Assembly: GCA_951812825.1 (NCBI GenBank)
Contig: OX638324.1
Location: 630,459 to 694,458 of the forward strand
Source of the DNA: an uncultured Dehalococcoidia bacterium
Lineage (GTDB): Bacteria; Chloroflexota; Dehalococcoidia; Lucifugimonadales; GCA-2712585
Direction: 5' to 3'
DNA length: 64,000 nt
Of the stretch, positions 50,680 through 52,253 are shown in pieces. The stretch's first letter is position 1. Each line of letters opens with the position of its first letter. The notes under the pieces are model-generated. The model made no database searches. It saw only the letters and a program-made list of their open reading frames with translations, and was not told the DNA's origin. The position numbers and the translations under genes are program-made.

Positions 50680-50860
50680 CGAATGTACATCACTTCCCCA
50701 CCCGGTTCCACGCCATAGCGCGTCAAGAAGCAATTCAACATCCTCACCATACCCCGTCACTCGTATTCACCCAGACGACCCCAGTGCCATTCTGGCCATA
50801 GCCCCACCTGCCACCTTGGTGTTAAACTGGTGCACAAATCATCCTGGAGGAGGTCCCCAC

Positions 50861-51307
50861 GTGTCCCTTTCCATTGGCGAAAAAGCCCCGGATTTCACCC
50901 TCAGCGCCACCGATGGCCAGGAAGTTTCCCTAAGCAGCTACAAGGACAAGCAAAACGTCCTCCTCGTCTTCTACTGTCGAAACAACACCCCCGGTTGAAA
51001 CCGTCAGCTCCAGGCCCTGCGGGACGACAGGGCCGAATTCGACGCAGCCAGCGCGGCGATCCTCGCCGTTAACCCCGCCTCGGTGAAATCGCACCAGAAC
51101 TACAAAACTAAGTTCGACCTTCCCTTCCCTCTCTTGTCCGACGCCGACCGCTCCGTGTCCAACGCCTACGATGCCGTCAAGCCCAACGGCAAGAGCATCC
51201 AGCGCTCCGTCCTCATCATCGACCGTGACGGCGTCATCCGATACCTCAAGAGCGGAATGCCCAAGGATAGCGAGCTTCTCGAAGTCCTCAACAGCCTGGA
51301 TTCTTAG
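50861..51307 (+). CDS. Peroxiredoxin (BCP/AhpC-TSA type), probable selenoprotein with in-frame TGA
   Basis: Reading through one TGA (50996-50998) gives 148 residues of an intact bacterioferritin-comigratory-type peroxiredoxin: GEKAPDFTLSATDGQEVSLS, then VLLVFYCRNNTPG-U-NRQLQ, ALRDDRAEF, LAVNPASVKSH, FDLPFPLLSDADRSV and SVLIIDRDGVIRYL. The TGA is residue 46, exactly where TPGC carries the peroxidatic Cys in BCP. The family resolving Cys five residues later is absent. The GTG start has GGAGGAGG 9 nt upstream. A SECIS-like hairpin follows the TGA. Without Sec insertion only a 45-residue fragment would be made. selA/B/C/D are not in the window. Confidence 0.85.
51013..51034 (+). promoter_or_regulatory. 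Putative bacterial SECIS element
   Basis: Perfect 7-bp stem GGCCCTG/CAGGGCC closing an 8-nt loop CGGGACGA. The stem starts 14 nt and the loop 21 nt after the TGA, with G as the second loop base. This fits the general description of bacterial SECIS elements (stem-loop directly downstream, loop roughly 16-37 nt from UGA, G among the first loop bases). Confidence 0.7.
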
Positions 51308-51364: not shown

Positions 51365-51388
51365 AAGGGCGGTTCGCGAACCGCCCTT
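51365..51388 (+). terminator. Perfect 24-bp palindrome after the peroxiredoxin gene
   Basis: AAGGGCGGTTCGCGAACCGCCCTT, 57 nt after the stop. It would form a strong hairpin. The following TCTCCCG lacks a T-run, so it may be an attenuating hairpin or a palindromic repeat rather than a classical terminator. Confidence 0.5.
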
Positions 51389-51431: not shown

Positions 51432-52253
51432 TTGATCCCCATAGGCCACATAGGAATTCAGCGTAAGACCATACCCTACGTCACCTACGGCCTTATCTCC
51501 GTGAACGTCCTGGTTTTCCTCTACGAACTCTACCTTGGCGGCTCTCTCTTCTTCACCGACAACATAGACGTCACCGTTTTCTTCCTCCAATGGGGACTCA
51601 TTCCCAGCGAACTGACCGGCGGCCCCGAAATCACCGAATGGCGTTTCCTGGTCAGGGAGGGACGCAACATCGGCATCCTCAACGCCGACGTCGCCTCCCC
51701 CATCTCCACCTGGGGCACCGCCTTCACCTCCATGTTCCTCCACGGCGGTTGGCTGCACCTCCTTGGCAACATGCTCTACCTCTGGGTCTTCGGTGGCAAC
51801 ATCGAAGACCGGTTCGGCCACCTGATCTTCCTCCTCTTCTACCTCGGCACTGGCCTCGCCGCCGTTTGGACCCATACTGCCCTCAACATGGAGTCCCAGA
51901 TACCTCTGGTGGGAGCCAGCGGAGCCATCGCCGGCGTCACCGGCGCATACATCGTCCTCTTCCCCTTCAGCCGCATACGAACCCTAATATTCTTCCTCTT
52001 CATCATGGCCGTCGATATGCCGGCAATCCTGGTATTGGGCTTCTGGTTCATCCTCCAGCTCTTCCAGGGATTGGGCCAGTTCGGCGCGTGGGACGCCGGC
52101 GTTGCCTACTGGGCACACGTCGGAGGCTTCGTCGCCGGAATCCTCTGCGGCTTAATCTACAAGCTCATCCACCGCGAACCCCTCATGCCGGAACGAACTA
52201 GACCGTGGGGCCGTCGCAACCCCTGGGACAACTTCCCTCCCGACTACCGCTAG
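51432..52253 (+). CDS. Rhomboid-family intramembrane serine protease
   Basis: 273 residues from a TTG. Multiple hydrophobic segments (for example about 17-35, 108-122, 131-150, 167-180, 184-208, 224-245). The nucleophile is in LVGASGAIAG (Ser about 163) and the His in AYWAHVGGFVAG (about 229). The upstream HGGWLHLLGNMLYL with conserved His and Asn is also typical. It cleaves transmembrane substrates in the membrane plane. The substrate is unknown. The start lies 43 nt after the palindrome at 51365. Confidence 0.9.
   Translation: MIPIGHIGIQRKTIPYVTYGLISVNVLVFLYELYLGGSLFFTDNIDVTVFFLQWGLIPSELTGGPEITEWRFLVREGRNIGILNADVASPISTWGTAFTSMFLHGGWLHLLGNMLYLWVFGGNIEDRFGHLIFLLFYLGTGLAAVWTHTALNMESQIPLVGASGAIAGVTGAYIVLFPFSRIRTLIFFLFIMAVDMPAILVLGFWFILQLFQGLGQFGAWDAGVAYWAHVGGFVAGILCGLIYKLIHREPLMPERTRPWGRRNPWDNFPPDYR

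Follow-up and report, generated by a model that had tools for sequence, protein, structure and literature searches.

The window analysed here is a stretch of 64,000 nucleotides (G000:C1:630459-694458) from a single-contig genome of 2,472,204 bases (2.47 Mb). On its forward strand, positions 50861 to 51307 hold a gene for 148 amino acids plus stop, which starts with GTG, terminates with TAG and contains exactly one internal stop, a TGA at 50996-50998. A Shine-Dalgarno-like GGAGGAGG, read from the sequence, lies on the same strand at 50846-50853, 7 nt upstream of the GTG. The read-through protein matches the Pfam AhpC-TSA domain over residues 5 to 128 (1e-35), and its AlphaFold2 model has a mean pLDDT of 96.3, with the putative selenocysteine (Sec) 46, the residue encoded by the TGA, near the start of a helix formed by residues 44 to 55. 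Sec46 occupies the peroxidatic position of a TPGU motif. The sole other Cys of the protein, Cys39, is encoded on the same strand at 50975-50977 and sits at the canonical Pro of the PxxxTxx(C/U) motif.

The initial annotation, made from the letters alone, had described a full peroxiredoxin in one frame with a single in-frame TGA, the replacement by that TGA of the peroxidatic Cys of TPGC (residue 46), a 7-bp stem with an 8-nt loop starting 14 nt after the TGA, and two oddities of the active site, FYC for FYP (Cys39) and the loss of the usual resolving Cys. Each of these observations held when the frame, the homologues and the RNA were examined, as described below.

The gene stands alone. As judged by reading of the frames, an aspS-like gene lies upstream on the opposite strand, and a frame for a rhomboid-like membrane protein starts at 51432. 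Between the latter and the peroxiredoxin gene, an inverted repeat (AAGGGCGGTTCGCGAACCGCCCTT, 51365-51388) resembles a terminator without a T run. No shared neighbour could be established in the neighbourhoods of the orthologues, which were listed as open frames, and a DNA search of plasmid records found no relative.

Selenocysteine machinery and the SECIS hairpin

A search for selA, selB, selD and tRNA-Sec had been proposed with the initial annotation, and all four are present on the same contig as the window, each above its cut-off: SelA at 2188473-2189807 (550 bits), SelB at 1942814-1944667 (349.7 bits), SelD at 1058509-1059423 (375 bits), which has a TGA of its own in the motif NCAGUAS, and tRNA-Sec at 1743062-1743154 (75.7 bits with Rfam), with the anticodon TCA according to ARAGORN. 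The host genome therefore holds the complete set expected for a bacterial selenoprotein. Among 60 related genomes, 50 carry selA. As to the genomes with a Sec-peroxiredoxin, selA was found in 7 of 10, and the three in which the search did not find it (G435, G436 and G442, at least two of them incomplete) each have a tRNA-Sec match; a tRNA-Sec match above the cut-off was obtained in all four such genomes searched. Two of the three Cys-form genomes tested gave no tRNA-Sec.

Downstream of the TGA, a stem-loop, GGCCCUG-[CGGGACGA]-CAGGGCC (loop in brackets), occupies 51013-51034 on the forward strand and starts 14 nt after the UGA, with 51013-51019 pairing with 51028-51034 in a 7-bp stem closed by an 8-nt loop. 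The bacterial SECIS model, as given in the portion of PMC13188914 drawn on here, has a loop of 3 to 9 nt, a stem of 4 to 16 bp, a G at loop position 1 or 2, a UGA-to-loop distance of 16 to 37 nt and an MFE of at most -7.5. The hairpin fits this model throughout, since its G is at loop position 2, its loop starts 21 nt past the UGA and its energy is -15.5 kcal/mol, so that the SECIS check suggested with the initial annotation came out positive. The folding energy alone is unexceptional (z -1.3).

Alignment of eight distinct Sec genes showed 85.7% of the hairpin cells to be paired, with three pairs changed on both sides, a number reached in 5 of 500 shuffles, and shifting the arms along the alignment reduced every measure. 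For eleven Cys homologues, the figure in these columns was 40%, not above that of the shuffles. The codon after ALRDD overlaps the 3' arm of the SECIS and, accordingly, encodes Arg or Lys in every one of the eight Sec genes; Trp, Leu or Tyr predominate there in the Cys homologues. Judged from these alignments, the eight Sec genes preserve the paired core of the SECIS, with substitutions that compensate each other, and the Cys genes lack it. Two further TGA-bearing matches of the class search (L139 and L141) belong to another thiol-oxidoreductase family (UxxC) and were excluded from the SECIS set.

Conservation of the UGA codon among homologues

Seven other genomes of the class, all distinct (G001, G013, G049, G031, G012, L055 and L074), have a TGA at the same codon, which excludes chance as the origin of the codon; among the closest relatives, those with named records are MAGs of Dehalococcoidia (Chloroflexota). 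At this position, Cys is found in about 70 homologues from other groups, including Gemmatimonadota, Vampirovibrio relatives, Patescibacteria and most Acidobacteriota. Thus, the alternation of TGA and Cys anticipated in the initial annotation was observed, and the codon shows the pattern of a bacterial selenoprotein, with a Cys opposite it in homologues and a retained TGA in several of them. A tree of 84 rows, built by a quick method with many weak forks and with the Sec/Cys column left out, needs six changes of the Sec label, three of them forced by supported branches. Three Bryobacteraceae/Acidobacteriota genomes (L094, L095 and L097), each with selA, form a separate Sec group, and since they lie apart from the Dehalococcoidia Sec forms on the tree, Sec may have arisen in these peroxiredoxins more than once. 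These three Sec forms read TPGUTKQAC, with a Cys kept at the resolving position.

The initial annotation had also named decayed frames in close relatives as an observation that would speak against it, and on this point the same-genus draft G002, described below, is a caveat. G001 (record OY282371.1, 67% identity), the nearest relative with an intact copy, keeps both the frame and the TGA. Compared with G001, dS and dN are 0.86 and 0.29 before the TGA and 0.98 and 0.24 after it, that is, a dN/dS of about 0.34 upstream and about 0.25 downstream. Purifying selection is thus equal on both sides of the TGA, and the downstream half is constrained like the upstream half, as expected for in-frame translation as one protein. 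The gene copy of G002, a same-genus draft in 250 contigs, is broken by an out-of-frame internal deletion (L034, C165:4460-4663 and upstream), which brings residues near 23 and 85 together, with loss of the active-site segment and its Sec codon; this copy represents either a real gene loss or pseudogene or a short-read misassembly.

Could the TGA in the window be a nonsense mutation of the codon for the active-site Cys, followed by decay of the downstream half? The disrupted copy in G002 fits such a pseudogene, but the recurrence of the TGA in the seven other genomes, the dN/dS past it being no higher than upstream, the Sec machinery in the genome and the hairpin conserved with compensatory changes argue strongly against it, and we consider it very improbable. 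A sequencing or assembly error at 50996-50998 is more improbable still, as the same TGA appears in independent assemblies, including the single-chromosome records OY282371.1 (L053) and OX638292.1 (L074). An equally slight chance is given to decoding of the UGA as Trp or Cys instead of Sec: we found nothing in its favor, the genome encodes SelA, SelB, SelD and tRNA-Sec, Cys, the residue with which Sec usually alternates, aligns at this codon, and SelA, SelB and the neighboring genes of the window are ordinary frames under table 11. Overall, the comparative evidence indicates that 50861-51307 is very probably a functional gene that encodes a BCP/PrxQ-AhpE-like peroxiredoxin with Sec as the peroxidatic residue, its translation and activity being predicted from the sequence.

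Active site and proposed catalytic cycle

The active site, T43-P-G-U46 in the AhpC-TSA domain, is that of a TxxU Sec-peroxiredoxin. The canonical Pro of PxxxTxxU is replaced by Cys39; Sec forms have C, T, V or P at this site, so Cys39 marks a variant rather than an exclusion from the TxxU Sec-peroxiredoxins. The Pro is absent in 9 of 17 Sec forms versus 3 of 96 Cys forms. The +5 resolving Cys of atypical 2-Cys PrxQ/BCP enzymes is also missing, with Gln51 in its place. This Cys occurs in 60 of 70 Cys forms and in 5 of 14 Sec forms, being lost in the other 9, although an independent-pairs comparison of Sec with this loss had three usable pairs only. Two Sec forms, L028 and L074, retain the +5 Cys (TPGUTRQLC), and their Sec/Cys pair may represent a stage between the Cys enzymes and those that work with a single Sec. 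In L025, L026 and L049, the matched protein has no Cys besides the Sec, and therefore a one-Sec cycle must suffice in these relatives. By TM-score, the best fold match of the AlphaFold2 model is the 1-Cys AhpE of Mycobacterium tuberculosis (TM 0.94).

Thr43 and Arg115 are both conserved in six aligned Sec proteins and, from general knowledge of peroxiredoxins, are presumably the residues that activate the Sec46 selenolate. In the cycle we propose, SelB and Sec-tRNA(UCA) would bind the SECIS hairpin just 3' of UGA 46, resulting in the insertion of Sec; with activation by Thr43 and Arg115, the selenolate would then attack the peroxide and yield a selenenic acid. Since the usual +5 resolving Cys is missing, an external thiol (thioredoxin or a low-molecular-weight thiol) would most likely reduce this selenenic acid directly, in a one-Sec cycle like that of 1-Cys AhpE.

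In an alternative, two-residue mechanism, Cys39 instead of an external thiol would resolve the selenenic acid by forming an intramolecular Se-S bond. The protein has no Cys besides Cys39. Of 17 Sec forms, 3 have Cys at this site, as against none of 96 Cys forms, and two of the three (those of the window and of L024/L053) form a supported clade (97). Nevertheless, the close Sec relatives L025, L026, L055, L028 and L074 have Thr or Pro at the site and the counts come from related, non-independent sequences, so that we regard resolution by Cys39 as unlikely. More broadly, the Sec-peroxiredoxins of this class might have relaxed the Pro and lost the +5 Cys, with the branch of the window using the Cys at the Pro site to resolve Sec within the active site (C-x6-U), a scheme to which we give only a small chance. 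A C-x6-U peroxidase cycle is not described in the parts of the Sec-peroxiredoxin literature cited here (PMC1088965, PMC2398784, PMC1794560, PMC13188914). Reduction by an external thiol in a one-Sec cycle remains the reading we prefer.

Wider group and relation to known peroxiredoxins

Four other peroxiredoxin/thioredoxin-fold genes of the same genome, at G000:C1:1726842-1727285 (L002), 2131799-2132158 (L003), 2203934-2204278 (L004) and 2202767-2202943 (L005), have one in-frame TGA each at the active-site Cys, in the motifs TGGU, WUGC and, in two neighboring lipoprotein-like genes, WUPxC; all four score under the cut-offs of the NCBIfam models. Across the 60 related genomes, one in-frame TGA was counted by eye in about 70 of about 117 peroxiredoxin/thioredoxin-fold matches, and the wider group thus seems rich in such genes. 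The locus in the window is a clean, well-supported case of a selenoprotein gene that gene calling under table 11 would split or label a pseudogene, and it falls below the cut-off of every NCBIfam model that could have rescued it. The departure of the Sec forms from the peroxiredoxin active-site consensus also bears on what Sec lets a peroxidase dispense with.

Several known systems can be compared with the protein. PrxU of Eubacterium acidaminophilum (NF040737) likewise has Sec at the peroxidatic position; however, its model spans 233 positions against the 148 residues of our protein, which scores 50.5 bits, far under the equivalog cut-off of 270, and therefore belongs to a subfamily other than PrxU. 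The best-scoring NCBIfam models are those of E. coli BCP/PrxQ, NF006960 (79.2 bits, below the equivalog cut-off of 140) and NF053650 (66.9 bits, cut-off 260). These enzymes share the TPG-C/U motif and a similar length, whereas our protein has Sec for Cys and lacks the +5 resolving Cys. M. tuberculosis AhpE (4x0x and 1xxu), one-Cys by its deposited title, is the closest in fold, with 32 to 34% identity and a Cys in place of the Sec.

The selenoprotein interpretation of the initial annotation was right, but the rarity that it implied was not: in the parts of the surveys consulted, TxxU Sec-peroxiredoxins, COG1225 (BCP-type) included, have counted as a selenoprotein family since 2005 at the latest (PMC1088965, PMC1794560, PMC13188914) and are among the commonest bacterial selenoproteins, with 43 in the Sargasso Sea (COG1225), 253 in GOS and 12 in the genomes of 2006 (PMC1088965, PMC2398784, PMC1794560, PMC13188914). 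Members from the host class are not named in those parts of the same four sources. With this family (PF00578, COG1225), our protein shares the peroxiredoxin fold, the TxxU motif, a bacterial SECIS just 3' of the UGA and widespread Cys homologues, and it differs in having Cys39 for the canonical Pro. The gene is an additional, well-supported member of an already known kind of Sec-peroxiredoxin, with an unusual active site and no new phenomenon.
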